Below, piece after piece: positions 836 through 48,053 of a DNA stretch of 48,053 bases. Source of the DNA: a virus. Made by a program: the position numbers and the translations under genes. Positions within the stretch are counted from its first letter, which is position 1. Every line of letters starts with the position of its first letter. The notes under the pieces are model-generated. The model was not told where the DNA came from, searched no databases, and worked only from the letters and a program-made list of their open reading frames with translations. Where the stretch lies: the IMG/VR virus record IMGVR_UViG_3300043119_000523, positions 1-48,053 of that record. One strand, written 5' to 3'.

Positions 836-880
836 TGAGCCGCAAGAGTGCTCTAAACCCCACTGAAAGGAACGAAAGAA

Positions 881-1315
881 ATGACCGAGATTACGGAAAC
901 GCAACTCCGCGAAATGAATATCGCGCAAACGGCCGAAGACTTTCAGGCCGATCTTGAACAGACTTCGCCCGCTTGGCTCTGGTCCGCTTTCATTTTCAAC
1001 CAGTCGCCACAAGGCCATGACCACTGGGCCGATCGGGCCACCGGCGAGCTTCCTCTGACTGAGGCCGACCGCGAATGGCTCGGCGAGGTGCTGGAAGCCC
1101 TGAAGCGCCGCGAAGCTTCGCAGCCCGCCCTGAGAGTGGCCGACGATCTGATCGAGGCTTTCATCGGCATTGGCCGCGCCGGCACTCCGGAAGGGGCACG
1201 GCTCGCAATCGTCGAGGCCACGCCGCGGGATCGGCTTGATGTCTACTGCCACTGGAACGGAATTCTTGGCTACTCTTCCCGCCTCGCCGACATTATGGAG
1301 GATAAGATTAGCTAG
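881..1315 (+). CDS. Early hypothetical protein, 144 aa
   Basis: ATG at 881 follows GAAAGGAACGAAAGAA, the GAAAGGAAC-type leader common in this genome. The protein is acidic and probably helical (starts MTEITETQLREMNIAQTAED), with a Trp pair and FNQSPQGHDHW near residues 32-49. No known domain is recognised. It is bracketed by two hairpins sharing the ACTAGT loop, suggesting its RNA is separately processed or attenuated. Confidence 0.6.
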   Translation: MTEITETQLREMNIAQTAEDFQADLEQTSPAWLWSAFIFNQSPQGHDHWADRATGELPLTEADREWLGEVLEALKRREASQPALRVADDLIEAFIGIGRAGTPEGARLAIVEATPRDRLDVYCHWNGILGYSSRLADIMEDKIS

Positions 1316-1320
1316 GCGAA

Positions 1321-1379
1321 ACGCGGGAGGCGGAGGCGTAACTAGTCAGGGCGTAACTAGTCCCACGTCCCTCCCGCGT
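1321..1379 (+). terminator. Large hairpin with two ACTAGT-containing repeats in its loop
   Basis: ACGCGGGAGG (1321-1330) pairs perfectly with CCTCCCGCGT (1370-1379). The 39-base loop holds two copies of GGCGTAACTAGTC (1335-1347 and 1350-1362), the motif also found at 815-827. No T-tract follows. Probably an attenuator or RNA-processing site. Confidence 0.5.
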
Positions 1380-1440
1380 CCACAGGAACCCCGGCCTACC
1401 TGTGCTGATGAGCCAGGCCGAACGTGAAAGGAACCTCGCT

Positions 1441-1536
1441 ATGACCTATTCCACCCTTCTCCTCGCCCGCATCTATGCCAGGCCCGCGAAGCCGGTTTCT
1501 CTGCCCCAGGTCTCGATCCAAGGAGGCGCGAAATGA
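1441..1536 (+). CDS. Small ORF, 31 aa
   Basis: A 31-codon frame starts at ATG 1441 after GAAAGGAACCTCGCT, the same leader used by the genes at 2132 and 2410. It ends in ATGA overlapping the start at 1533, so it is either a small gene or a coupling leader peptide. The product begins MTYSTLLLARIYARP, short and mildly hydrophobic then Pro-rich. Its C-terminal codons contain AAGGAGG, the ribosome site of the next gene. No function can be assigned. Confidence 0.45.
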   Translation: MTYSTLLLARIYARPAKPVSLPQVSIQGGAK

Positions 1537-1730
1537 AAGCGAGATGTGTAAAGTACTACCCGCTTGTGTCGGCGCATGATCTACCCTACCTTACAGTCGG
1601 GAAAGAATACGAGGTGCTCGTTGATGATGGCGAGCTTTTTGAAATGCTCGACGACGGCGGCACTCGCTTGTGCGTTTTGTGGCAGGGCAGCTCCCATGGA
1701 ATTTTTGAAAAAGTGGAGGAAGGGGAATGA
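1533..1730 (+). CDS. Small beta-rich hypothetical protein, 65 aa
   Basis: Starts in an ATGA overlap with the 31-aa ORF and ends in another with the next gene. The pattern MKARCVKYYP...LTVGKEYEVL...GGTRLCVLW...GIFEKVE looks like the small SH3-like barrel proteins common in phage early regions. That is a fold guess from strand pattern, not a function. No membrane segment. Confidence 0.6.
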   Translation: MKARCVKYYPLVSAHDLPYLTVGKEYEVLVDDGELFEMLDDGGTRLCVLWQGSSHGIFEKVEEGE

Positions 1731-2065
1731 CGGAATTTGAACTCGAGCTGGCACGGTTTTGCAAAGCCCTTCAGGCGGAACTTGCAAAGCCCGCCTCGGA
1801 CTGGTTTGACCGCGACTTCGGTCTTTGCGAAAACATCTACCAGTGGGCCGGCGGGGGCCGTAATCACCACGAGAGCCAGGCCCTTCAAAACCAGCTTTCC
1901 GGCCTCTTCATGAACGAGTTTGGAAATGGTACATTCCCCTTCGAGTCCGGCGCAGACCTTGAGGCCCGCTGGTGGAGCTACAACGCCGCCGCCACCAACG
2001 ACCGCCTCTACGCCAATCCCCGCCGCCTCGCCTTCATCACCAAGTGGGCCGCGCTGGCGCCGTGA
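1727..2065 (+). CDS. Hypothetical protein, 112 aa
   Basis: Coupled to the preceding gene by ATGA. The sequence is Trp-rich with a His pair (WAGGGRNHHESQ, about residues 41-52) and two Arg/Tyr-rich stretches near the C-terminus. No catalytic motif or membrane segment is recognised. A GC-rich hairpin follows it at 2077-2097. Confidence 0.6.
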   Translation: MTEFELELARFCKALQAELAKPASDWFDRDFGLCENIYQWAGGGRNHHESQALQNQLSGLFMNEFGNGTFPFESGADLEARWWSYNAAATNDRLYANPRRLAFITKWAALAP

Positions 2066-2076
2066 GACCTTTCTGC

Positions 2077-2097
2077 CTCGGGCGGGCTTCGCCCGAG
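2077..2097 (+). terminator. GC-rich hairpin after the gene ending at 2065
   Basis: CTCGGGCG (2077-2084) and CGCCCGAG (2090-2097) form a perfect 8-bp stem with the loop GGCTT. Only TT follows, so it may be an attenuator, mRNA stabiliser or weak terminator. Confidence 0.4.
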
Positions 2098-2131
2098 TTG
2101 GAAATGCCTCAACCAAGAAAGGAACCTCGAA

Positions 2132-2413
2132 ATGGACTTGAAAAACATACTGGCGGTCAGGCCCGAAACACTGGCCCAGGAACAGGAAAAGGCTTTGGCC
2201 GATTTCACCTCTGGGCGGCTGTGCGAAATCGCAGCACTCATTTCAGCCGGCGCCTATGAACAGGTAAAAAGCTATCTGGCCTATTCACCTGCCGGCGACG
2301 ATATGGGCTGCGACAACAGCTACATTTCGTTCAAGGACGAAACTGGCCTCGAAGACATCGGCGAGGTAATCGACCGGCTTATCGAGCTGGAAAAGAAAGG
2401 AACCTCGAAATGA
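2132..2413 (+). CDS. Hypothetical protein, 93 aa
   Basis: ATG follows GAAAGGAACCTCGAA at good spacing. The product is acidic and helical (MDLKNILAVRPETLAQEQ...), with GDDMGCDNSYISF in mid-protein and a Lys/Glu-rich end whose last codons encode the leader of the next gene (AAAGGAACCTCG). No recognised domain. Confidence 0.6.
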   Translation: MDLKNILAVRPETLAQEQEKALADFTSGRLCEIAALISAGAYEQVKSYLAYSPAGDDMGCDNSYISFKDETGLEDIGEVIDRLIELEKKGTSK

Positions 2414-2514
2414 AAGATTACATCATCCAGCTTGTCGTTGAAACGACCCGCGCCACAGCGGTCCTCGGCATCATCGGCCTGGCCCTTTTCGCCCTCGTCG
2501 GATATGGAGGCTAA
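2410..2514 (+). CDS. Small single-pass membrane protein, 34 aa
   Basis: Starts in an ATGA overlap with the gene ending at 2413, using GGAACCTCGAA as ribosome site. The product starts MKDYIIQLVVETTR, followed by one hydrophobic segment (VLGIIGLALFALVG) and a Gly-Tyr-Gly-Gly end. It is probably an inner-membrane microprotein. Function unknown; host take-over or superinfection roles are only guesses. Confidence 0.55.
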   Translation: MKDYIIQLVVETTRATAVLGIIGLALFALVGYGG

Positions 2515-2515
2515 G

Positions 2516-2830
2516 ATGACCTCTCGCCAACTCCGCATATCTCTGGCCTCTTCCGGCGAGCTTGCCCTCTTTATTCCGGCCCCTGCCACTGCCAGCGGCG
2601 GCCATACCGTAGAGGTCCCTTGCACCGTTGAGGGCCTTCGCCTCATTCGTGAGACCCTCACCCGATATTCCGCTGGCGAAACCCCCGCTATCGGTTCCGC
2701 CTCGCGTCCGGTTCAGTCCGACATTCAGGCCCTTCTCGCCGCATTCCGGCCCGGCCCTAAGAAGTTCAAGGCCGCGCCGGACCTCGAGGTCGAAATCGAC
2801 TTTTCCATCCTCTCTGACCTGAAACTCTAA
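2516..2830 (+). CDS. Hypothetical protein, 104 aa
   Basis: The ATG at 2516 is chosen because GGAGG (ATATGGAGGCTAAG) sits 6 bases upstream and the start lies one base past the stop of the membrane microprotein. The N-terminal half is strand-rich and includes VPCTVEGLRLIRETL. A Pro-rich linker and an acidic C-terminus (DLEVEIDFSILSDLKL) follow. Unknown function. Confidence 0.6.
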   Translation: MTSRQLRISLASSGELALFIPAPATASGGHTVEVPCTVEGLRLIRETLTRYSAGETPAIGSASRPVQSDIQALLAAFRPGPKKFKAAPDLEVEIDFSILSDLKL

Positions 2831-2841
2831 GGAGCCCTCCT

Positions 2842-3072
2842 ATGCTTGACCGTGAAAAATACGACACCGCCTGTGATATTCTGGAAGCCAGCTGCAGTCT
2901 TGCGGCTGAAATAGGCGTCCCCACGCCTGAGCTTCTCGCCGCTCTTACTTCCACCCTCGGCTCTATTGCCGGCGCCAGCTTTAAGCCGGAACGCTTCGAC
3001 GTCGGCCTCGAAAATATCATCCTGGCCCTCCGCAAGACGGCTGAAATGGAGCGTGGCAATGGCCAGGCGTGA
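2842..3072 (+). CDS. Hypothetical protein, 76 aa
   Basis: ATG follows AAGGAGCCCTCCT, the second recurrent leader form in this genome. The product is predicted all-helical (MLDREKYDTACDILEASCSL...) and shows no membrane segment or known motif. It lies directly upstream of the AAA+ ATPase and could be a partner, which is inference from position only. Confidence 0.6.
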   Translation: MLDREKYDTACDILEASCSLAAEIGVPTPELLAALTSTLGSIAGASFKPERFDVGLENIILALRKTAEMERGNGQA

Positions 3073-3121
3073 ACCGCCAAACAAACCACGTTCCCCCTAC
3101 GACCCGAAAGGAAAACAAAAG

Positions 3122-4255
3122 ATGAGCAAGTTTAACGACGATCTGACTTCCGACTATATGAGGAAAGTCTTAGACAATTTGGTCAAGCAAAAAACAATTG
3201 GCGTCAGGTTCACAGATGCCCCTGACCCTTTCGCCCCTTCCACTCCTGGCGCCTCCGCTGTCAAGCAGTGGCTTCATGAAACGCGCTCCGACGTTACCTG
3301 GGACGCCATCATCGGCAACACCGAGGCCAAGCGAGCCCTCCGCCTCGCCATCGAGGACACGGTGCAGCACGCCGATCTTTTCCGAGCTTACGGCACCCTT
3401 CCCCCGAAGGGCGTACTGCTCTACGGCCCACCCGGCTGCGGCAAGACGATGTTAGCCAAAGCAGCCGCCACGGCCCTCGACGCCCCGCACTACCTCCTCA
3501 TCAACGGCCCGGAACTCGAGTCGAAGTGGTACGGCGAAACGGAGGAGCGTATCCGCGCCATCTTCAGCTATGCCCGGAAGTACGCCGAGCACTACAAGAA
3601 GCAACTCCTCATCTTCATGGACGAGGCCGACAGCTTCCTTATTCCACGCGGCACCGGCCACGCTGTGAACGAAGGTGCCGTGGCACAGTTCCTGACCGAA
3701 CTCGACGGCATGGACAGTCTCGGCGCCTTCATCATCCTCGCCTCCAATCGGCCAGACCACATCGATGAGGCCTTGCTCCGTGACGGCCGTATCGGCAGGA
3801 AGATCAAGGTCGAGCGCCCTGGCTACGAGCAAGTCATCGACATTGTTCAGGCCCTCGTATCTTCCCTCCCTGTCCATCCGTCTTCGCGTCGTGAGGACCT
3901 GGCCGTGACCGCCGCCGAGGCCCTCTTTCATCCGCAGCATGTCCTCCAGGACCTCGCCGCGGTGGGCTTTCGCATGACCGAGGAAGGGCCGGAGATTTCC
4001 CAACACCGCGCCCTGCACTTCTGCCTTTCCGACATCGTCAGCGGCGCCATGGCAGCGTCCCTCGTAGAAAGGGCAAAGCTTCGTGCCATCGAGCGGGACA
4101 AGGAGCATGGCCGCGCCCTTGGCCTCTGCAACGAGGACCTCGTCTTCGCAGTGGAAGAAATCTTCCGCGACAATCGCGGCCTCAACCACAACTTCGCCCT
4201 CGAAGAATTTGTCGAGCGCAAGAAGCTGGAACTCAACAAGAAGGCGATGAACTGA
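3122..4255 (+). CDS. AAA+ ATPase, 377 aa
   Basis: Classic AAA (FtsH/Cdc48/spastin-type) ATPase domain: Walker A GPPGCGKT (~residues 102-109), Walker B LLIFMDEAD (~160-168), and a second region of homology ASNRPDHIDEALLRDGRIGRK supplying candidate arginine fingers. The family forms hexamers that remodel or unfold proteins. The ~60-residue N-terminal region has no substrate domain I recognise, and no protease domain follows. Start ATG 3122 follows GAAAGGAAAACAAAAG; in-frame ATGs at 2966 and 3059 lie inside or beside the preceding gene. It ends in a TGATG overlap with the next gene. Its target is unknown, and it is unusual for an early phage region. Confidence 0.9.
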   Translation: MSKFNDDLTSDYMRKVLDNLVKQKTIGVRFTDAPDPFAPSTPGASAVKQWLHETRSDVTWDAIIGNTEAKRALRLAIEDTVQHADLFRAYGTLPPKGVLLYGPPGCGKTMLAKAAATALDAPHYLLINGPELESKWYGETEERIRAIFSYARKYAEHYKKQLLIFMDEADSFLIPRGTGHAVNEGAVAQFLTELDGMDSLGAFIILASNRPDHIDEALLRDGRIGRKIKVERPGYEQVIDIVQALVSSLPVHPSSRREDLAVTAAEALFHPQHVLQDLAAVGFRMTEEGPEISQHRALHFCLSDIVSGAMAASLVERAKLRAIERDKEHGRALGLCNEDLVFAVEEIFRDNRGLNHNFALEEFVERKKLELNKKAMN

Positions 4256-4623
4256 TGACTAAGATCGTTTACAATTCCTGCTACGGCGGCTTTTCCCTCA
4301 GCAAGACGGCTATTCTCCGCTACGCTGAGCTAAAAGGCATTACTCTTTACCAGCGAGTTGACGACCGCTTTAAGGGCCTCGGCGACCATTTCTCTAGCTG
4401 GTACCTTGACGAGGCTTACACCAAACATTGGTCCGACCGTGACATCAATCGAACAGACCCTGTTCTCGTCAAAGTTGTCGAAGAGCTTGGAACGGCTGCC
4501 AATGGACGTTTTGCTGAGCTTTGTATCGCCGACGTTCCAGTCGGCACACGCTACCGCATCGACGAGTATGATGGAAACGAATCCGTCATGACTGTCGAAG
4601 ACTATGAATGGAGTATTGCCTAA
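4255..4623 (+). CDS. Conserved phage protein of unknown function, 122 aa
   Basis: Coupled to the AAA+ ATPase through TGATG. The N-terminus KIVYNSCYGGFSLS is a signature I have seen in many small proteins of tailed phages, none with an assigned function. The middle is aromatic and charged (GDHFSSWYLDEAYTKHW) and the end acidic (YDGNESVMTVEDYEW). No membrane segment. It ends in TAATG with the next ORF. Confidence 0.7.
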   Translation: MTKIVYNSCYGGFSLSKTAILRYAELKGITLYQRVDDRFKGLGDHFSSWYLDEAYTKHWSDRDINRTDPVLVKVVEELGTAANGRFAELCIADVPVGTRYRIDEYDGNESVMTVEDYEWSIA

Positions 4624-4745
4624 TGCCCTGCGCCACCATCATCCTTTCCATCGTACTCGGTTTCGGAGGGCTTCTTGCCCTCCTTTCCGGCGTCGTCATC
4701 CACCAGCGGGCTAAGGCCCTCGAAGCGTCTGGAGGCCTCGAATGA
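4623..4745 (+). CDS. Small membrane protein, 40 aa
   Basis: Starts in the TAATG of the preceding gene and ends in the ATGA of the next, so it fills the coupling chain exactly. One hydrophobic helix (ATIILSIVLGFGGLLALLSG) is followed by a basic tail (VVIHQRAKALEAS), predicting an N-out/C-in single-pass protein. Second such microprotein in this early region. Confidence 0.55.
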   Translation: MPCATIILSIVLGFGGLLALLSGVVIHQRAKALEASGGLE

Positions 4746-5044
4746 TCTACTACGCAATCAGGCACAAGGAAACCCAGGCCTTCCTTTCCGCGGCCTGGCA
4801 AAAAGGCGGCACGTATTGGGAGGGCGAGGCCGACAACCTTCCGCCCAGGCTATTTAAAACAAAGATGGCCGCGCAGAAGTTTGTGGAAATGTGGGCCAAA
4901 GGCTGCGCCTCCGTCAAGGAAGAGTGGCGAGAAAGCTCACCACTCGGCCCGCGCGAGTGTATCCGTGTTTATACAGTTTACGACGACCAAGGCCGCTCCC
5001 GTTCCGACCTTCTCATCGTCCCTCTTTCCCTTTCGGAGGTCTAA
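4742..5044 (+). CDS. Hypothetical protein, 100 aa
   Basis: ATGA-coupled to the small membrane protein. The opening MIYYAIRHKETQAFLSAAW, the mid-region KTKMAAQKFVEMW, and the strand-rich end resemble small alpha/beta phage proteins; I cannot name the family. Its last codons carry the GGAGG used by the GTG start at 5048. Confidence 0.6.
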   Translation: MIYYAIRHKETQAFLSAAWQKGGTYWEGEADNLPPRLFKTKMAAQKFVEMWAKGCASVKEEWRESSPLGPRECIRVYTVYDDQGRSRSDLLIVPLSLSEV

Positions 5045-5047
5045 CCA

Positions 5048-5473
5048 GTGCCATCCTCCCGTTCCCTCAACGCTTACTCCGACGTCAAGCTCGTCCTCGA
5101 CAAGGCCGTGGCCGACGGCGGTTTCAGCTTCCGACTTCCGAAGCCCTCTCGAGCCACGACTTTCAAATCCCGTATCTACAACTGGCTCCGCATTTGGCGG
5201 AACCACGAGCGCGAGCGGATCGGAAATCTTCCCGCCGGCCAGGTCCCGCCTTCCCCCTACGACGACATAGTAGCTCGGATCGATCCGAAGGACCCCTGTG
5301 TCATCCATCTTACCGTTCGCCAGGCAGACTTCCTGGCCGAAATCACCACGCCCGAAGGAGGCCCAGTTGAACTTTCCTACGACCACTCCAAAAACTCGAC
5401 GGCAGCGCCTCTCGACGACCTCGAAGATACCATTCGACAGTTCGCTCGAAACGCCGGACTTGACCTCGACTAG
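5048..5473 (+). CDS. Hypothetical protein, 141 aa
   Basis: GTG start, supported by GGAGG 10 bases upstream. A basic N-terminal part (RLPKPSRATTFKSRIYNWLR) could bind nucleic acid; an acidic end (PLDDLEDTIRQFARNAGLDLD) follows. No named domain. It overlaps the proposed TTG start of the next gene by ~14 bases. Confidence 0.6.
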   Translation: MPSSRSLNAYSDVKLVLDKAVADGGFSFRLPKPSRATTFKSRIYNWLRIWRNHERERIGNLPAGQVPPSPYDDIVARIDPKDPCVIHLTVRQADFLAEITTPEGGPVELSYDHSKNSTAAPLDDLEDTIRQFARNAGLDLD

Positions 5474-5630
5474 CCCGCACCTCCATGTTCCGTATCTTCT
5501 TCGCGAGAACTGGGAATGTGCGACGATTCTACCAGACGGTACGGTCTGCGGCCGTCACGTCACCTCTGAAACCTTCGCTTTTTGCCCCGAGTGCTTGAAG
5601 CGATTTACCGTAAAAGGGAGTACGAAATGA
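5460..5630 (+). CDS. Small zinc-ribbon-like protein, ~56 aa
   Basis: The C-terminal part shows four cysteines as C-x9-C and C-x2-C (WECATILPDGTVCG and FCPECLKRF), a likely zinc ribbon. The frame ends in ATGA with the next gene. No ATG fits; the TTG at 5460 is my best start because it overlaps the preceding gene's end, but the exact start is uncertain. Zinc-ribbon microproteins often bind nucleic acid or host enzymes, but the role here is unknown. Confidence 0.45.
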   Translation: MTSTSPHLHVPYLLRENWECATILPDGTVCGRHVTSETFAFCPECLKRFTVKGSTK

Positions 5631-5887
5631 CAAAGTTCGTAAAACTAACTGGGTATAAAAGCCCAGCTGCCGGCGAGACCTTTCGCACAGAGCCACTGTG
5701 GGTCAATCCAGAGCTTATTGCGCATATGAGCCAACACCAGGCCCGGCGCGAACGTGCCGCCAATGGCGCTTACTACAACACTTTCGTAACTGTCACCGGC
5801 ATCGCTTTTGCCGCCGCCTTTGCGGAAGAAGTGGTCGGCGTCAGTGTCCTCGAAACACCAGAAGAAATTATGGAGATGGCGCGATGA
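5627..5887 (+). CDS. Hypothetical protein, 86 aa
   Basis: ATG at 5627 follows AAAAGGGAGTACGA and overlaps the previous stop (ATGA). Begins MTKFVKLTGYKSPAAGETF; a run of Ala/Val/Phe residues in the middle (GIAFAAAFAEEVVGV) is too charged for a clear membrane helix. Ends in ATGA with the next gene. Unknown function. Confidence 0.6.
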   Translation: MTKFVKLTGYKSPAAGETFRTEPLWVNPELIAHMSQHQARRERAANGAYYNTFVTVTGIAFAAAFAEEVVGVSVLETPEEIMEMAR

Positions 5888-6078
5888 CCTCCACCTACTA
5901 CCTCGCCCACCATGACGGCACCGGCTGGTGGCACCTGCTCGAAGTCCTCACGGTGAAGGCCACTGAAGAAGGTCCAATCCCTCTCGAAGTGGCCCGCGCC
6001 CATTGGCCCCAGGTCAAAGGCGATCCGGCCAACTGGAAAATCCTCATGGCCATCAAGGATTCCTCTGATGAAAATTGA
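5884..6078 (+). CDS. Hypothetical protein, 64 aa
   Basis: ATGA-coupled. The short protein starts MTSTYYLAHHDGTGWWHLLE and is rich in aromatics and His. It overlaps the next gene by 11 bases, consistent with coupling. No domain recognised. Confidence 0.55.
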   Translation: MTSTYYLAHHDGTGWWHLLEVLTVKATEEGPIPLEVARAHWPQVKGDPANWKILMAIKDSSDEN

Positions 6079-15390: not shown

Positions 15391-15413
15391 TTAAACCTAT
15401 CATGGAGCTTCGT

Positions 15414-16709
15414 ATGACCAGTGGCGTTTTTGAAATCGTTCCTATCAGCAAAGTCTGGATCGATCGGGCCGAGCGGCAGCGCAAGGATTTCTCCGTCGAG
15501 GACCTTCTGCAATCTATTCCCTCCGTCGGCCTCATCAATCCGATCGTAATTCAGCGCGACGGTAAACTCATCGCCGGCGAGCGCCGCTACACTGCATGTT
15601 CCCAACTCGGCTGGACGGATATTCCGATCCAGTATGCTGACACCCTCGACCCCGTCACTCTCCACCTCATCGAGCTTGAAGAAAACGTCAAGCGGAAAAA
15701 CCTGTCGTGGCAGGACGAGGTCGATGCGGTGGCCAAGTTCCATCAGTTAAAAGCTTCACAAGACCCAGCCTGGAATATGGAGTCCACGGCCGAAGCCCTC
15801 GGTATGTCTCGGTCTTCCGCTTCGGACAAGCTGGCAGTAGCCAAGGCTCTCGAGTCCGGCACGGCCCGCGTTACAGAGGCCCCGAAATTTTCCGTAGCTG
15901 TCGGCATCGTCAAGCGCGATAACGCTCGGAAGAAAGTTGATGCAGTTCAGCGGCTTGCCGCTACCGAAGTTGAGGAGGGGCCGGAAGATCGTGCCTCTTC
16001 TGAGTCCGGCACTGTTCCTCCCACCGCGCCGGCAGTTCCCCTCCTCAACACTTCCTTCCACGATTGGGCCCTCGAATACACCGGCCCTAAGTTCAACCTG
16101 CTCCATTGCGACTTCCCCTACGGCGTCAATGCCGACAAGCACGATCAGGGCCAAGCCGCACTTCAGGGCGGTTACGAAGACTCGCCCGATGTCTACTGGT
16201 CCCTCATCGACACCCTTCGCCTCGTGACCGAGCGCCACGTCGAAGACTCTGCCCACCTCATCTTCTGGTTCAGCATGGACTACTACAAGGAGACTCTCGA
16301 TGCCCTCACTTCTATCGGATGGAAAACTTCGCCGTTCCCTCTTGTCTGGCACAAGTCGGATAACACTGGCGTTTTGCCGGACCCGAACAGGGGTCCCCGC
16401 CGAACTTATGAAACGGCTTTCTTCGCTTCCCGAGGTGACCGCCTCATCGTCGGCGCCAAAGCAAACAGCTTCTCTCACCCAGGACGAGACAAGTCCATCC
16501 ACATGAGTGAGAAGCCGAAGCCCATGCTTCGCCACTTCCTGTCTATGGTCTGCGACGAACACAGCACGATGCTCGATCCGACCTGCGGCAGTGGTAACGC
16601 CGTGAAGGTAGCCCAGCTTCTCGGCGCCGAGCGTGTGCTTGGTCTGGAACTGAACGCCGAGTTCCATGGACGGGCGGTTGCCGCTTGGACCTCGGACGTT
16701 GATCTTTAA
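15414..16709 (+). CDS. ParB-domain / beta-class DNA methyltransferase fusion, 431 aa
   Basis: N-terminal ~190 residues are ParB-like: VPISKVWIDRAERQRKDF, IVIQRDGKLIAGERRYTA (GERR motif), EENVKRKNLSWQDE, then a helix-turn-helix region (TAEALGMSRSSASDKLAVAK). After a linker of ~30 residues, the C-terminal part is a DNA amino-methyltransferase with motif IV LLHCDFPYG (a DPPY variant) ahead of motif I DPTCGSGNAVK, the order of beta-class enzymes. Start ATG 15414 preferred over 15402 because GGAG is 6-10 bases upstream. Likely modifies phage DNA against restriction, or guides site choice via ParB; the role is inference. Confidence 0.88.
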   Translation: MTSGVFEIVPISKVWIDRAERQRKDFSVEDLLQSIPSVGLINPIVIQRDGKLIAGERRYTACSQLGWTDIPIQYADTLDPVTLHLIELEENVKRKNLSWQDEVDAVAKFHQLKASQDPAWNMESTAEALGMSRSSASDKLAVAKALESGTARVTEAPKFSVAVGIVKRDNARKKVDAVQRLAATEVEEGPEDRASSESGTVPPTAPAVPLLNTSFHDWALEYTGPKFNLLHCDFPYGVNADKHDQGQAALQGGYEDSPDVYWSLIDTLRLVTERHVEDSAHLIFWFSMDYYKETLDALTSIGWKTSPFPLVWHKSDNTGVLPDPNRGPRRTYETAFFASRGDRLIVGAKANSFSHPGRDKSIHMSEKPKPMLRHFLSMVCDEHSTMLDPTCGSGNAVKVAQLLGAERVLGLELNAEFHGRAVAAWTSDVDL

Positions 16710-16724: not shown

Positions 16725-17036
16725 ATGAAATACGACAATCCTAGACTTAACGAGCGCCAGTCTACGCATGGCGATTTCCTCAGCACAGCCGACGCCGCGC
16801 AAAAGGTCAAAAGCGTACTGCGCCATACGGCTCAGACCTCCGGTGTCCGCCTCACTACTGTCCAGTGGGAAGTGGTAGACATGATCGCAACTAAGCTCGC
16901 CCGCGTCGTCAGCGGCAATCCGAATGAGCTTGACCACTGGAAGGATATTGCAGGTTATGCTGATCTGGCCGAAGCCCAGCTTATTCCTGTAACTGGCCAG
17001 AAGGTCCCGAGCAGCCCGTCGAAAAAGGAAGACTGA
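16725..17036 (+). CDS. DUF6378-type phage protein, 103 aa
   Basis: NERQSTHGDFLSTADAAQKV, then QWEVVDMIATKLARVVSGNP and DHWKDIAGYADLA match the pattern of the DUF6378 family, common in tailed phages, often near replication genes; function unestablished. ATG follows AAGGAGCCCTGAA. The product ends SKKED because those codons include AAGGAAGA, the ribosome site of the next gene. Confidence 0.75.
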   Translation: MKYDNPRLNERQSTHGDFLSTADAAQKVKSVLRHTAQTSGVRLTTVQWEVVDMIATKLARVVSGNPNELDHWKDIAGYADLAEAQLIPVTGQKVPSSPSKKED

Positions 17037-17037
17037 C

Positions 17038-17310
17038 ATGAACCAACATAAAGCAATGCAGGAAACACTGCAGCTAGCGCGCCTCGCCGGCATGGAAAAT
17101 CTCGTCAGTGACATTCCGGAGTTGGACTTTCCACACCTTCTTGACATGTACAATCGTGTTCACACAGGCGAGATCGAATTTTCGGAAGCCAAGCTCGGAC
17201 GCTGGCTAGGGTGGATGCAGGCTGCTGTTGTCGCAGCGGATATCGGCCTCACTCTCGAGGACATGAAAGCAATCAACAAGGCTAATGCCGATGACAAACA
17301 GTCCACCTAA
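17038..17310 (+). CDS. Hypothetical helical protein, 90 aa
   Basis: ATG one base past the previous stop, using AAGGAAGA. Mostly helical (MNQHKAMQETLQLARLAGME...), with GRWLGWMQAAVVAADIGLTL near the C-terminus, which is moderately hydrophobic but not a clear membrane span. Overlaps the polymerase fragment start by 26 bases. Possibly a small phage protein of the same helical type found beside DUF6378 genes. Confidence 0.6.
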   Translation: MNQHKAMQETLQLARLAGMENLVSDIPELDFPHLLDMYNRVHTGEIEFSEAKLGRWLGWMQAAVVAADIGLTLEDMKAINKANADDKQST

Positions 17311-18337
17311 GATCCTCATCTGCGGTGAAGCATACGGCCAAGCCGAGGAAGAAGCCGGGGTCCCCTTCATTGGGGCCTCCGGCAAATTGCTTCATAAGCT
17401 TCTCTCTGCCGTCGGCATCAACCGCGATCAGTGCCACTTCACCAATGTCTTCAACCTGAGGCCGAAGCCGCGCAACGACGTTTCCAACCTGTGCGGTCCG
17501 AAACACCACGGCATCAAGTGGATGCCGTACCTCAAGCGGGGCGAGTATGTCCGAGAAGATTACGAGTCAGAGCTCCTTCGTCTGTACGCTGAAGTGTCCG
17601 AGGTGCGACCAAATCTTGTCATTGCACTCGGGGCCAGTGCCGCATGGGCTTTCTGTAAAACCTCTGGCATCAAGCAAATCCGAGGAGCACCAACACTTGC
17701 TGATCCAGCAATCGCACGTCGATGCGGTGTCGAGCAGCTCAAGGTGCTTCCCTCTTATCACCCTGCAGCTCTTCTCCGGGAGTGGAAGCTTCGCCCTGTC
17801 TTATTCGCTGATTTGCGAAAGGCTGCCCGAGAAGCGGAGTTCCCTGAGCTTCGTCGGCCTTCTCGTGAAATCTGGCTGGACCCGACGCTCGATGACATGG
17901 CTGAGTTCAAGCGCCGCTTCATTGATCCGGCGCCTCGGATTAGCGTGGACATCGAAACGGTAGGGGACCAGATCACAATGGTCGGGTTCAGCCCCACGCC
18001 AGACCGAGCCCTCGTCGTGCCCTTCATTGACTTCCGAAAGCAGGACCGAAACTACTGGCGGACTTTCGGCGAGGAACGTGCGGCCTGGAACTTCGTCCGC
18101 GAGGTCACATCGATGCCGGACAAGGAGTGCGTTGGGCAAAATTTCAGCTACGACCTGAAATATCTATGGGCGCGCTACGGTATGCCGCCTATGAACTTCG
18201 AGCATGATACGATGCTTCTGCATCACGCCCTTCAGCTGGAAATGGAGAAGTCATTAGGATTTTTGGGTACTCTTTACACGAGTGAAAGTTCGTGGAAGAT
18301 GATGCGAAAAACAGGGACACTAAAAAAGGAAGATTAA
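17285..18337 (+). CDS. Split DNA polymerase A, fragment 1: uracil-DNA glycosylase plus 3'-5' exonuclease (ExoI/II), 350 aa
   Basis: Residues ~8-175 are a family-4-type uracil-DNA glycosylase: KILICGEAYGQAEEEAG, VPFIGASGKLL, TNVFNLRPKPRND and SYHPAALLREW (HPAALLR-type motif). Residues ~215-350 are the first part of a PolA DnaQ-like exonuclease: ExoI ISVDIET (DxE) and ExoII GQNFSYDLKYLW. The frame stops at TAA 18335-18337 shortly after SSWKMMRK, before any ExoIII motif. The missing YxxxD and the polymerase domain are on 19325-20929. UDG-PolA fusions are known in tailed phages; here the fusion is fissioned. Ends RKTGTLKKED, nearly repeated at the end of the HNH gene. Confidence 0.9.
   Translation: MPMTNSPPKILICGEAYGQAEEEAGVPFIGASGKLLHKLLSAVGINRDQCHFTNVFNLRPKPRNDVSNLCGPKHHGIKWMPYLKRGEYVREDYESELLRLYAEVSEVRPNLVIALGASAAWAFCKTSGIKQIRGAPTLADPAIARRCGVEQLKVLPSYHPAALLREWKLRPVLFADLRKAAREAEFPELRRPSREIWLDPTLDDMAEFKRRFIDPAPRISVDIETVGDQITMVGFSPTPDRALVVPFIDFRKQDRNYWRTFGEERAAWNFVREVTSMPDKECVGQNFSYDLKYLWARYGMPPMNFEHDTMLLHHALQLEMEKSLGFLGTLYTSESSWKMMRKTGTLKKED
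18305..18337 (+). repeat. Tail repeat copy 1 (end of polymerase fragment 1)
   Basis: Eleven codons encode RKTGTLKKED-stop. Compared with 18780-18812 (RKNGTIKKED-stop), 24 of 33 bases match and most differences are third-position. Part of the match (AAGGARGAT) is a ribosome-binding constraint, but RKxGTx is not. Confidence 0.6.
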
Positions 18338-18338
18338 C

Positions 18339-18812
18339 ATGGCCGATTGTAAAGTAGAAGGCTGTTCCCGCGTCAGAGAAACTTTAATGGGCTACTGTGT
18401 CATGCACTATAAGAGACTCAAAAGAAATGGCACAACGGATAGAGTACTGCAAAAATACACTGGTCTAGAAACTTGTTTAGAGTGCGGTGAACTTAGCCCT
18501 AGGATGCGAAAGGGTTATTGCCACGCTTGTTCGATCAGGCTCTCGCGGAAAGGTTATGCCGCAAGAGACAGAGGAGTAAAGGGAAAAGGCTGTGTAAACT
18601 CTGCAGGTTATGTTGTACTAACAGTTGACGGTAAAAGAGTTTACGAACATCGGCAAAAAGTTTTTGCCCAACCAGGTGAAATCATTCACCATAAAGACGA
18701 AAGTAAAATAAATAATAATGTAGACAACCTGCAAATACTTTCGTCGCAATCCGAGCATATGAAGTTACATCAGGCGGTGCGAAAGAACGGCACGATTAAG
18801 AAGGAGGATTAA
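18339..18812 (+). CDS. HNH homing endonuclease, 157 aa
   Basis: Two N-terminal zinc-binding-like clusters (CKVEGC...GYCVMHY and CLECGE...GYCHAC), then an HNH_3-type nuclease: VYEHRQKVFAQPG, IIHHKDESKINNN, VDNLQILSSQSEHMKLH. It starts one base after fragment 1 and uses AAGGAAGA in its end. Visibly richer in A+T than flanking genes, with AGA/AAA/TTA codons, indicating recent entry. It ends RKNGTIKKED (18780-18809), matching the fragment 1 tail at 8 of 10 residues with different codons. Probably a free-standing homing endonuclease cutting intact or HNH-less polymerase loci. Confidence 0.9.
   Translation: MADCKVEGCSRVRETLMGYCVMHYKRLKRNGTTDRVLQKYTGLETCLECGELSPRMRKGYCHACSIRLSRKGYAARDRGVKGKGCVNSAGYVVLTVDGKRVYEHRQKVFAQPGEIIHHKDESKINNNVDNLQILSSQSEHMKLHQAVRKNGTIKKED
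18780..18812 (+). repeat. Tail repeat copy 2 (end of HNH gene)
   Basis: Encodes RKNGTIKKED-stop and supplies AAGGAGGA for the ORF at 18814. If the HNH element inserted just before the end of fragment 1, this would be the ancestral tail and 18305-18337 a tail brought in by the element. That is inference from one short match. Confidence 0.55.
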
Positions 18813-18813
18813 G

Positions 18814-18990
18814 ATGGGAAAGCCACTCATACCAGCGGACTTGGCCGCCAAGCTGAAAGAGGAAGACCCACGAAGAACCTGGTCCGATGTAGCAAAGCTT
18901 CTTAAAAAGCTCGGGTATCCAGAAGACCCATTTCCAGCTTTTCAAGCGTCTTCCGTTTATCAGAGCGTGCACAAGGGAACTTACAAATGA
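18814..18990 (+). CDS. Small protein inside split polymerase locus, 58 aa
   Basis: ATG one base after the HNH stop, with AAGGAGGA at good spacing; ends in ATGA with the next gene. Sequence opens MGKPLIPADLAAKLKEEDPR; RTWSDVAKLLKKLGYPED could be a helix-turn-helix-like segment. Codon use is intermediate. It may have belonged to the locus before the HNH gene arrived. No function assigned. Confidence 0.6.
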   Translation: MGKPLIPADLAAKLKEEDPRRTWSDVAKLLKKLGYPEDPFPAFQASSVYQSVHKGTYK

Positions 18991-19340
18991 TCTACCTCGC
19001 TTCTCCTTATTCCCATCCCGACCCTCTCATCATGCGGACGCGCTACCTTCTGGCCGAGCAAGTCACAGCCGGTCTTCTCGCCAAGTCCCTCTGGACCTAC
19101 TCTCCCATCGTCCACTGCCACGAGCTTGCGGCGCGCCATTCACTCCCAACTGACTTCGCCTATTGGCAGGAATACAACATCGACATGCTTCGCCGTTGCG
19201 ATAGGTTCTATGTCTTATCTATCCCAGGCTGGCGAGAGAGCAAGGGCGTAGCAGGTGAAAGTGCCGTAGCCCATATGCTCAACCTGCCTATGGCGCTTAT
19301 CAATGAAGAGGGAGTTGTAACACCGTGGCCCGTATCATAA
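18987..19340 (+). CDS. DUF1937 protein, nucleoside-deoxyribosyltransferase-like fold, 117 aa
   Basis: MIYLASPYSHPDPLIMRTRY is the DUF1937 signature; DMLRRCDRFYVLSIPGWRES and SKGVAGESAVAHML complete it. The family resembles nucleoside 2-deoxyribosyltransferases (GEx2A-like end), so a role in nucleotide metabolism is possible, though activity is unproven. It is ATGA-coupled upstream and overlaps the GTG start of polymerase fragment 2 by 16 bases, so translation of that fragment may depend on it. Confidence 0.8.
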   Translation: MIYLASPYSHPDPLIMRTRYLLAEQVTAGLLAKSLWTYSPIVHCHELAARHSLPTDFAYWQEYNIDMLRRCDRFYVLSIPGWRESKGVAGESAVAHMLNLPMALINEEGVVTPWPVS

Positions 19341-20929
19341 ACTCAGGCGATCTAACCCCTGCCGCCCTCCAAGCCCTGCCACAGCACGACCTCGACTGCA
19401 TCTATAACGGCCTTGACTGCTGCGTCACGCTCGAAGTCTTGGAGGTCTTGCTCGGCGAACTTGACGAGACCTCTTCGGAAACTTACGCCTTCAGCCGTGC
19501 CCTTCAAGGCCCGATCATCGATATGGCCATGCGCGGTATCAGGATTGATTTCCGCAAGCGCGATGCAGTACTGGCCGAGTTCGAGGCGCGCCGTGAAAAA
19601 GTCGGCAATGCCCTCGACCGTATCATCCGCGAGGGCATCGGCGTAGATATCGACTGGAATAGCCCGAAGCAGTTGATGAACCTGTTCTACGACGTGATGC
19701 AGTTTAAGCCTATCAGGAAGCGCAATCCAAAGGGAATGCTCGTTCCGACGATCAATCGTGATGCAATTGAAAAGCTTCAGTCGCATTACTACGCCGGCCC
19801 ACTCTGCGCGCACCTCCTTCTGCTTCGCGACCTGAACAAAAAGATCGGCTTTCTCAAAACAGGCATCGATCCGGATGGCCGCATCCGAGCTGGCTTTAAC
19901 ATTGCCGGCACCACGACAGGCCGCCTGTCTTCTTCCATGTCCGAGTTCGGCACAGGTACAAACCTCCAGAACGTGGACCGTGACCTGAAGAAAATCTTCA
20001 TCGCCGATCCGGGCTATAAGTTTGTCAACCTCGACCTTGAACAAGGAGACAGCCGTAATGTCGGCGCTATCATTTGGAACCTGTTTTACGAAAGCCACGG
20101 CGCCACGGAGGCCGGCCGTTATCTCGACGCTTGCGAGTCCGGTGATCTTCACACGACCGTTTGCTCGATGGCTTGGTCGAACCTTGCATGGCCTGAGGAT
20201 AACAAGGCCAAGCGAGAAGTAGCTGACGGCATTGCATATCGTAACTTCAGCTACCGCGATCTAGCCAAGAAGCTAGGTCACGGCTCCAACTACCTCGGCC
20301 AACCGAAGACTATGGCAGGGCACTCCAAGGTCGAACAGCCTCTGATCGAAGACTTCCAGGACCGCTACTTTGGCGCCTTCCCACTCATCGGTTCCACTTA
20401 TGGCCGGAGCCATGAGCCCAACTGGCACAACTGGGTCAAGCAGCAAATCTGGGATTTCGGCTACATCACTTCTCTCATGGGCCGGCGCAGGTTCTTCTAC
20501 GGCAATCCCGCCGATGAGTCCACCCTCCGCGAAGCCGTGGCCTACGAACCGCAGAGCCTGACCGGTGATGAAATCAACACAGGGATGCTTCGTATCTGGC
20601 GCCAGTTTCCATGGGTGCAACTTCTCTGCCAGGTCCATGACTCGATCCTACTTCAAGTCCCTGAGGAAATGTCGGATGACGTTATCCAGCTTCTTCTCGA
20701 TACGCTTCGCATTACTCTGTTGCTTAAAGGCGGGCGCGAGTTCTCTGTGCCGACAGAGGCCAAGGTCGGCTGGAATTGGGGCGATGCACCGAGTGAGAAG
20801 GAAATCTCTCGCGGCGCTGAGCCAAATCCTGACGGCATGATAAAATGGAAGGGTGCTGACTTGCGCCGCCGTACTGAACACCCGATTGAAAAAGTCGGGG
20901 GCAAACTTACATTGAGGGGTATATTGTGA
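19325..20929 (+). CDS. Split DNA polymerase A, fragment 2: ExoIII motif plus polymerase domain, 534 aa
   Basis: GTG start 19325 follows GAGGGAGTTGTAACACC. Residues ~20-45 hold the missing exonuclease motif III, IYNGLDCCVT (YxxxD). The polymerase palm and fingers follow: TTGRLSSSMSEFGTGTNLQN, motif A NLDLEQGDSRNVG (DxxQxxxR), motif B YRDLAKKLGHGSNYLG, and motif C QVHDSILLQVP. The O-helix residue aligned with E. coli F762 is His, and motif C reads HDS rather than HDE. Together with fragment 1 it covers a whole UDG-PolA with little missing, so a two-chain enzyme is likely. Overlaps the DUF3987-type gene by 4 bases. Confidence 0.92.
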   Translation: MARIINSGDLTPAALQALPQHDLDCIYNGLDCCVTLEVLEVLLGELDETSSETYAFSRALQGPIIDMAMRGIRIDFRKRDAVLAEFEARREKVGNALDRIIREGIGVDIDWNSPKQLMNLFYDVMQFKPIRKRNPKGMLVPTINRDAIEKLQSHYYAGPLCAHLLLLRDLNKKIGFLKTGIDPDGRIRAGFNIAGTTTGRLSSSMSEFGTGTNLQNVDRDLKKIFIADPGYKFVNLDLEQGDSRNVGAIIWNLFYESHGATEAGRYLDACESGDLHTTVCSMAWSNLAWPEDNKAKREVADGIAYRNFSYRDLAKKLGHGSNYLGQPKTMAGHSKVEQPLIEDFQDRYFGAFPLIGSTYGRSHEPNWHNWVKQQIWDFGYITSLMGRRRFFYGNPADESTLREAVAYEPQSLTGDEINTGMLRIWRQFPWVQLLCQVHDSILLQVPEEMSDDVIQLLLDTLRITLLLKGGREFSVPTEAKVGWNWGDAPSEKEISRGAEPNPDGMIKWKGADLRRRTEHPIEKVGGKLTLRGIL

Positions 20930-22149
20930 AGGGACGAAACTTTGACTCATTCATCGAGGGCTTTCTCGAATACACTGCGGCGCTTCCTTCGCCTACGGCC
21001 TTCAAGCGTTGGTCCGCAATCAGCTGTGTGGCCGGGGCGCTTGAACGCAAGACCTGGGTGAACATCCGCAAGCAGCCCCTATACCCGCACCTCTACACCG
21101 TCCTTGTCGGAACGCCAGGCGTCGGCAAGTCGGAGGTAACTTCTCTTGTTGAGCGGCTGTGGGGCGCACTTGGTGCGGGCCTCGATGGCGGGCACTACCT
21201 TGCCTCTACGTCACTGACCAGCGCATCGCTCAAGGACGACCTGCGTGATGCGGAGCGCCGTATCATCAGGCCGAAGGAAGTCCCATCCCACATCAGCTTC
21301 AACTCTCTTCTCGTCTGCGCCAACGAGTTGACTTCCTTCATCAACGCCTACGACGCGGCCTTCATCGGCACACTCACCGACATCTATGATGGCAAGCCTT
21401 TTAAGGAACGCAGGCGGTATGGCAAAGATACGTCCTTCAAGCTGGAACATCCGCAGATCAATATCCTAGCCGGCACGACGCCGTCTTACCTCAACGACTT
21501 GTTGCCGGAAGGCGCGTGGGACCAGGGCTTCACGTCTCGCACCATCTTCGTCTACTCTGGCGACGTGCAGAAACGCAAGCTCTTTTCGGAAGATGACGAC
21601 AACAACAGGGAGATTGAACAAAAGCTTCTAGCCGACCTCAAAGTCATTGGCAAGCTTTACGGAAAGTTTACGTGGACCCAGGAGGCGAAGGCCGCAATCA
21701 CCGATTGGGACTGGAAAGATGGCCCACCGAAGCCCACGCATCCGAAGCTTCAGCATTACAACACACGGCGCACCGTCCACCTCGCAAAGCTTTGCATGAT
21801 TAGTTCAGCTTCGCGAGGCGATGACCTCGTCATTACCCTAGATGATTTTGAAATTGCGCGAGATTGGCTGGCGTCGGTCGAAGCCACGATGCCTGATATC
21901 TTCAAGGCCATGCGCACAGGTGGGGAGCAGAAAGCCATCCGCGAGTTGTGGTACGAATGCTGGATTGAGTACAACAAGCATGGGAAGAAGGCTGTGCCAG
22001 AAGCCCTACTTATCGAGTTCCTTCAAGACCGCGTTGCCGCACATAGCGTTGAGCGCATTCTCGACCTCATGTGCAAGTCGAAGATATTCGAGCGGGAATA
22101 TGAAAAAGGCGCGACACTGTATAAGCCACGCGCCGCACCACCTGCTTAA
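20926..22149 (+). CDS. DUF3987-type P-loop ATPase, probable helicase/primase-like replication protein, 407 aa
   Basis: GTG start overlaps the polymerase stop (GTGA). N-terminal AFKRWSAISCVAGALERKTW, Walker A LVGTPGVGKSEV, SLLVCANELTSFI (Walker B-like) and INILAGTTPSYL match DUF3987-type phage ATPases, often annotated as replicative helicase-like proteins. The C-terminal ~80 residues look like a winged-helix (ALLIEFLQDRVAAHSVERIL). No primase domain is seen here or elsewhere. Its stop shares TTAA with the convergent membrane protein gene. Confidence 0.8.
   Translation: MKGRNFDSFIEGFLEYTAALPSPTAFKRWSAISCVAGALERKTWVNIRKQPLYPHLYTVLVGTPGVGKSEVTSLVERLWGALGAGLDGGHYLASTSLTSASLKDDLRDAERRIIRPKEVPSHISFNSLLVCANELTSFINAYDAAFIGTLTDIYDGKPFKERRRYGKDTSFKLEHPQINILAGTTPSYLNDLLPEGAWDQGFTSRTIFVYSGDVQKRKLFSEDDDNNREIEQKLLADLKVIGKLYGKFTWTQEAKAAITDWDWKDGPPKPTHPKLQHYNTRRTVHLAKLCMISSASRGDDLVITLDDFEIARDWLASVEATMPDIFKAMRTGGEQKAIRELWYECWIEYNKHGKKAVPEALLIEFLQDRVAAHSVERILDLMCKSKIFEREYEKGATLYKPRAAPPA

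Positions 22150-47926: not shown

Positions 47927-48053
<127 letters not shown>

Follow-up and report, generated by a model that had tools for sequence, protein, structure and literature searches.

A family-A DNA polymerase encoded as two chains, with its proofreading site divided between them, in a clade of tailed phages

Phage polymerase genes are known to host introns, and in some Aeromonas phages the replicative polymerase of the T4-like gene 43 is split into 43A and 43B; that enzyme belongs to family B and is cut at a different place from the one described below, and to our knowledge its split does not mark a large ancient clade. Among family-A enzymes, tailed phages carry one-piece fusions of a uracil-DNA glycosylase (UDG) with PolA (ctMlz233, MW202489; Microcystis phage Mel-JY34). 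Here we describe a viral stretch of 48,053 nucleotides (nt) (IMG/VR record IMGVR_UViG_3300043119_000523, positions 1 to 48,053; hereafter the window), in which an enzyme with the same domains, domain order and catalytic residues is encoded by two open reading frames (ORFs), f1 and f2, with the exonuclease site divided between them. The one-piece enzymes differ in being a single polypeptide and in having about 20 fewer residues between the exonuclease motifs ExoII and ExoIII, while most of them share with the split clade a His at the position of Klenow residue 762 and several a DUF3987 gene next door. The phiLo polymerase (PDB 9qhs), a solved one-piece relative, matches f1 residues 5-309, with a large root-mean-square deviation of 15.6 over two domains.

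Other family-A polymerases of phages are also found in two parts. In the OM43 phages MEP401 and MEP402, and in most of their relatives, PolA is split with a small ORF in between; the first ORF comprises the exonuclease domain and the N-terminal part of the polymerase, and an intron was suspected by the authors (PMC10580990). This cut falls inside the polymerase domain and leaves the exonuclease site undivided, whereas the cut in the window divides it. Two polymerase ORFs are likewise present in Vibrio phage VS-ABTNL-3 and in the loci L106-L108 and L274-L279 of our scans, but they derive from a separate fission before polymerase motif A, which is also seen in the UDG-PolA relative L003; the UDG-PolA family seems prone to fission. 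The known split phage polymerases found here leave the exonuclease intact, while the present cut passes through the proofreading active site. The authors who described the separate exonuclease ExnV1, recovered from a virus metagenome of a hot spring, considered it a truncated polymerase; it carries equivalents of ExoIII and is therefore not equivalent to f1. One cultured phage, Caulobacter phage Kuura (OQ067476, genes 029 and 026), belongs to the split clade and has the same cut, but its gap holds two unrelated small ORFs and its f1 is annotated as a hypothetical protein; the passages found in the Kuura paper name just a DNA polymerase. No polymerase divided between ExoII and ExoIII is described in the literature covered, which includes few of the subscription journals.

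In the window, f1 (17285-18337, forward strand, 350 aa, ending in SWKMMRKTGTLKKED) carries a UDG domain (Pfam UDG, E 3.5e-21) followed by ExoI (VDIET, with D222 and E224) and ExoII (QNFSYD, with N286 and D290). The GTG start of f2 (19325-20929, forward strand, 534 aa) lies 987 nt behind the f1 stop, and this chain opens with ExoIII (YNGLD, with Y27 and D31) before a complete family-A polymerase domain (Pfam DNA_pol_A, E 1.3e-27) with motif A (D237), motif B (R311 and K315) and motif C (D439). One PHROG 'DNA polymerase' profile covers both chains, f1 matching its positions 477-788 and f2 its positions 809-1235, that is, consecutive and almost adjoining stretches of a single profile. The preliminary description of this DNA had named the two ORFs, three further ORFs between them and these motifs, and all of them are present at those coordinates. 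By fold and profile f1 belongs to the UDG superfamily (family 4/UdgX-like fold), and f2 is a family-A DNA polymerase by its DNA_pol_A match, the catalytic Asp residues of its motifs and its match to the Klenow structure; neither is a one-chain proofreading PolA, as ExoI and ExoII lie on f1 and ExoIII on f2. The two-ORF polymerase is the only recognised DNA polymerase of the window phage.

In order to assess completeness, we aligned the split pairs with nine one-piece homologues. The interval between the Asp of ExoII and the Tyr of ExoIII measures 86 residues (79-92) in the split pairs as compared to 65-70 in the intact homologues, and the surplus of about 20 residues corresponds to a short f1 tail plus a short f2 head. 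Since the split pairs are longer rather than shorter in this interval, no part was lost at the junction, which bears out the earlier proposal that the exonuclease and the polymerase are complete. The AlphaFold2 (AF2) model of f2 has a mean predicted local distance difference test score (pLDDT) of 90.9, and its residues 3-506 match Klenow residues 469-928 (1kfs_A, Z 30.4), which places the junction near Klenow residue 467-470; on these models the cut sits in the segment joining the helix after ExoII to the ExoIII helix. In the f1 model (mean pLDDT 92.0) the UDG and the exonuclease core are ordered and the last 12 residues are of low confidence. The UDG fold was recognised with Z 19.6 over 152 residues against 6l6s_B; because UDG folds dominated the structure comparison of f1, its exonuclease part was mapped by profile, which reached ExnV1 only (7r0t, 7e-6).

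Relatives were collected by scans of viral contigs using alignments of the halves, giving three sets; a scan with f2 as the sole query returned no match among viral contigs, and a scan of genome contigs returned two ordinary bacterial PolA and nothing else. The split clade comprises 156 loci in which both halves are readable, including the window and Kuura, which were reduced at 90% identity to 108 non-redundant pairs. The halves are separate ORFs in all 156 loci and fused in none, so that chance or an error of assembly or sequencing, the last of which the preliminary description had listed as refuting its reading, is excluded as the origin of the split; a frameshift is ruled out by the same clade-wide pattern. 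It had also placed the UDG on a dispensable chain, and this did not hold: among the clade loci scanned f1 is never missing where the contig reaches far enough upstream, and in the five loci that lack it f2 begins no more than about 430 nt from where the contig ends. Conversely, ExoII and ExoIII share one ORF in 75 of the 77 loci of a sister set, gathered with an intact homologue as the lead query. The two exceptions, L206 and L260, are apparently cut between UDG and exonuclease, as judged from coordinates, and six further loci are cut lower down, before polymerase motif A. On a tree of 85 concatenated proteins, split and intact states are separated by one change (Shimodaira-Hasegawa-like approximate likelihood ratio test, 99). 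The split is a single, ancestral and clade-defining fission and not damage to one genome.

Both chains are under strong constraint. Counted across them, the DEDD-Y catalytic set is conserved: in all 108 non-redundant pairs we found the ExoI Asp and Glu and the ExoII Asn and Asp on f1 and the ExoIII Asp on f2, and the ExoIII Tyr is present in 107. On f2, D31 is the sole invariant residue ahead of P63, and the polymerase residues D237, K315 (both with D439 in 108/108) and R311 (76/76) are equally fixed. The ExoIII residues of PolA serve the exonuclease site, and we know of no other use of the Tyr and Asp; their retention on the polymerase chain argues that the site is used jointly with f1. Pairwise divergence of the exonuclease part correlates with that of f2 (0.744) better than with that of the UDG on the same chain (0.401) or of the DUF3987 protein (0.605), which is support rather than proof because the pairs are non-independent. 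The UDG positions are kept less strictly, with E at the Glu15 position in 98 of the 108 and H at the His159 position in 88, so that UDG activity may be altered in some members. Synonymous divergence (dS) between the window and L010 is saturated, and no ratio of nonsynonymous to synonymous divergence (dN/dS) is claimed for most genes.

The best explanation of these data, to which we assign a probability of about 0.8, is that a single ancestral fission gave rise to a two-subunit UDG-exonuclease/polymerase holoenzyme whose proofreading site is built in trans; assembly of this site from two polypeptides, as proposed earlier, is probably right given the near-invariant catalytic residues on both chains of the 108 pairs. 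In the clade ancestor, a single UDG-exonuclease-polymerase gene would have been broken a single time, in the loop that links the ExoII helix to the ExoIII helix (Klenow residue ~467-470). The products of f1 and f2 would bind each other and restore the exonuclease fold, f1 giving the metal ligands of ExoI and ExoII and f2 the ExoIII Tyr and Asp together with the polymerase; proofreading would exist in the complex only, whereas polymerisation might need no more than f2. The site of fission would then have become a landing place, mostly for a DUF1937 gene and sometimes for HNH genes, and the halves would never have re-fused, even with nothing in between. Several points weigh against this explanation. 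The AF2 models represent f1 and f2 each folded singly and not as a complex; the tree was rooted on the intact set; and the split and intact samples were picked by similarity to their queries, so that the border between them may be blurred. The distance correlations are built on non-independent pairs, and the UDG may have a recombination history of its own. Finally, the conserved f1 tail (TIKKED/KRDE) need not be a protein interface, because its codons (for IKRDE or IKKED) contain a Shine-Dalgarno-like AAGAGG or AAGGAGG before the next start codon. To judge from the alignment, W337 (107/108) and K338 (108/108), directly ahead of this tail, are better candidate interface residues.

The alternative that survives best, though we consider it unlikely, is that the chains act separately, f1 serving as an independent uracil-DNA glycosylase whose exonuclease domain is a relic, and f2 as a non-proofreading polymerase. 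The complete UDG fold of f1 and the complete polymerase domain of f2 would suit such a division of labour. A relic, however, should shed its metal ligands, and these are kept in every pair on both chains; the ExoIII Tyr and Asp on f2 would be left without a known use, and the exonuclease part diverges along with f2 and not with the UDG.

Rejoining of the halves into one polypeptide by a self-splicing intron, trans-splicing, a split intein or ribosomal bypassing is decidedly less probable, even if phage polymerase genes are intron hosts and the gap of the window holds an HNH gene. An intron was rejected as a candidate since neither the window as a whole nor the junction (18100-19500) matches an Rfam intron, and the tails of about 12 and 20 residues are too short for an intein. 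The N terminus of f2 has its own start motif in 104 of the 108 pairs, and the intervening genes are intact, vary from lineage to lineage and are sometimes absent. In several relatives nothing stands between the halves: L083 and L189 have a four-base overlap and L085, L168 and L180 a one-base overlap (stop and start codons of ATGA or TAATG type), and in L040 f2 starts directly after the f1 stop. As the halves abut in these members and yet stay separate, splicing is not needed, and a spliced mRNA appears very unlikely from the sequences. In the zero-gap members the f1 tail would make translational coupling of f1 and f2 available.

Elsewhere the gap is variable, ranging from -4 to 1734 nt with a median of 571 in the 108 pairs. 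In the window it holds three forward-strand genes, starting directly behind f1 with an HNH endonuclease gene (18339-18812; PHROG HNH 8.9e-8, Pfam HNH_3 2e-4), followed by a 58-aa ORF without family (18814-18990; no Pfam match, weak phrog_2191 at E 0.035) and a DUF1937/DUF4406 gene resembling nucleoside 2-deoxyribosyltransferases (18987-19340; Pfam DUF1937 1.5e-10, phrog_355 3.2e-10), which shares 16 nt with f2. HNH genes of differing kinds lie behind f1 in six loci of the first relative set; they are absent from most members and from the closest relative, L010 (79% identical), which is split all the same, and are best regarded as late arrivals. The preliminary description had cited known fissions with an intervening homing endonuclease as parallels; the HNH gene was rejected as the cause here, since L010 shows the split in its absence and the tree places the split earlier. 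That the HNH gene recently disrupted this single genome, for which its position directly behind f1 might speak, or that the assembly is in error, has practically no chance of being correct; both readings are already refuted by the 156 loci split at the same place, by L010 and by the single origin on the tree.

The commonest gene of the gap is the DUF1937/DUF4406-like one, whose profile was found in 64 of the 108 pairs. It is absent from the gap in Kuura and L102, both near the base of the tree, and 13 changes on that tree are required to account for its distribution; in the intact L004 a DUF1937-like ORF (2025-2759) lies directly upstream of the one-piece polymerase. Its placement between the halves in most split phages and beside the intact polymerase of L004 suggests a functional link of this nucleotide enzyme with UDG-PolA. 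Cargo genes in the gap came and went while the split persisted. One further locus outside the non-redundant set, L069, has a gap of 5080 nt (855-5935), where two large tail-fibre-like ORFs separate the halves, an arrangement that could stem from permutation of the genome or from its assembly.

The C terminus of the HNH protein (RKNGTIKKED*, 18777-18812) is similar to that of f1 (RKTGTLKKED*, 18302-18337), and the 3' end of its gene is 85% identical over 41 bp to the f1 end of L010. This copy of the f1 tail scores 45, as compared to at most 29 in other gaps, and may have arisen by duplication of the f1 end, carried in when the HNH gene inserted. The idea that the HNH gene delivered a replacement f1 3' end was downgraded, because KKED* doubles as a Shine-Dalgarno sequence and phiKZ-type HNH proteins end similarly. 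Another gene of the window (16725-17036) likewise ends in KKED*.

Downstream, f2 is overlapped at its end by a DUF3987 helicase/primase-like gene (20926-22149, forward strand; phrog_14296 DNA primase, 1.9e-50), which is found at 102 of the 108 split loci and also adjoins the polymerase in the intact L004 and L006. Upstream, positions 15402-16709 encode a ParB-like domain fused to a DNA methyltransferase, and ParB or methyltransferase genes lie upstream of the polymerase in several intact relatives too. Within f2, residue 319 (20279-20281) is the His at the Klenow 762 position, which is present in 107 of the 108 split members and in most intact relatives; discussions of this position in phage PolA concern Phe, Tyr or Leu. 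Among the other genes of the window are a terminase, a head-tail adaptor, a major head and a tail tubular-type gene. The window ends (1-120 and 47934-48053) nearly repeat each other apart from mismatches; both contain 28-29 consecutive T, then AAATACAGTAAG and a G-run. These ends perhaps represent a terminal redundancy with sequencing errors.

Because the cut divides the active site, this site can exist in these phages only if two gene products meet. Annotation can miss f1, as in Kuura, and such phages therefore seem to have a truncated polymerase. As f2 by itself might act as a polymerase that lacks exonuclease activity, the f1:f2 ratio could alter both fidelity and uracil handling, and a regulatory role of the split is possible. 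Tentatively, and with the odds somewhat against the full proposal, a large and old clade of tailed phages might replicate with a two-subunit family-A enzyme that carries proofreading and uracil removal on a detachable subunit, the f1:f2 ratio setting how much polymerase works with or without proofreading and selection keeping even abutting halves apart. If the trans-built site is real, the clade would offer a natural two-component polymerase in which the supply of a second protein might turn proofreading on, a test case for why selection preserves a fission, and a route to asking whether phages tune their mutation rate via subunit ratio.

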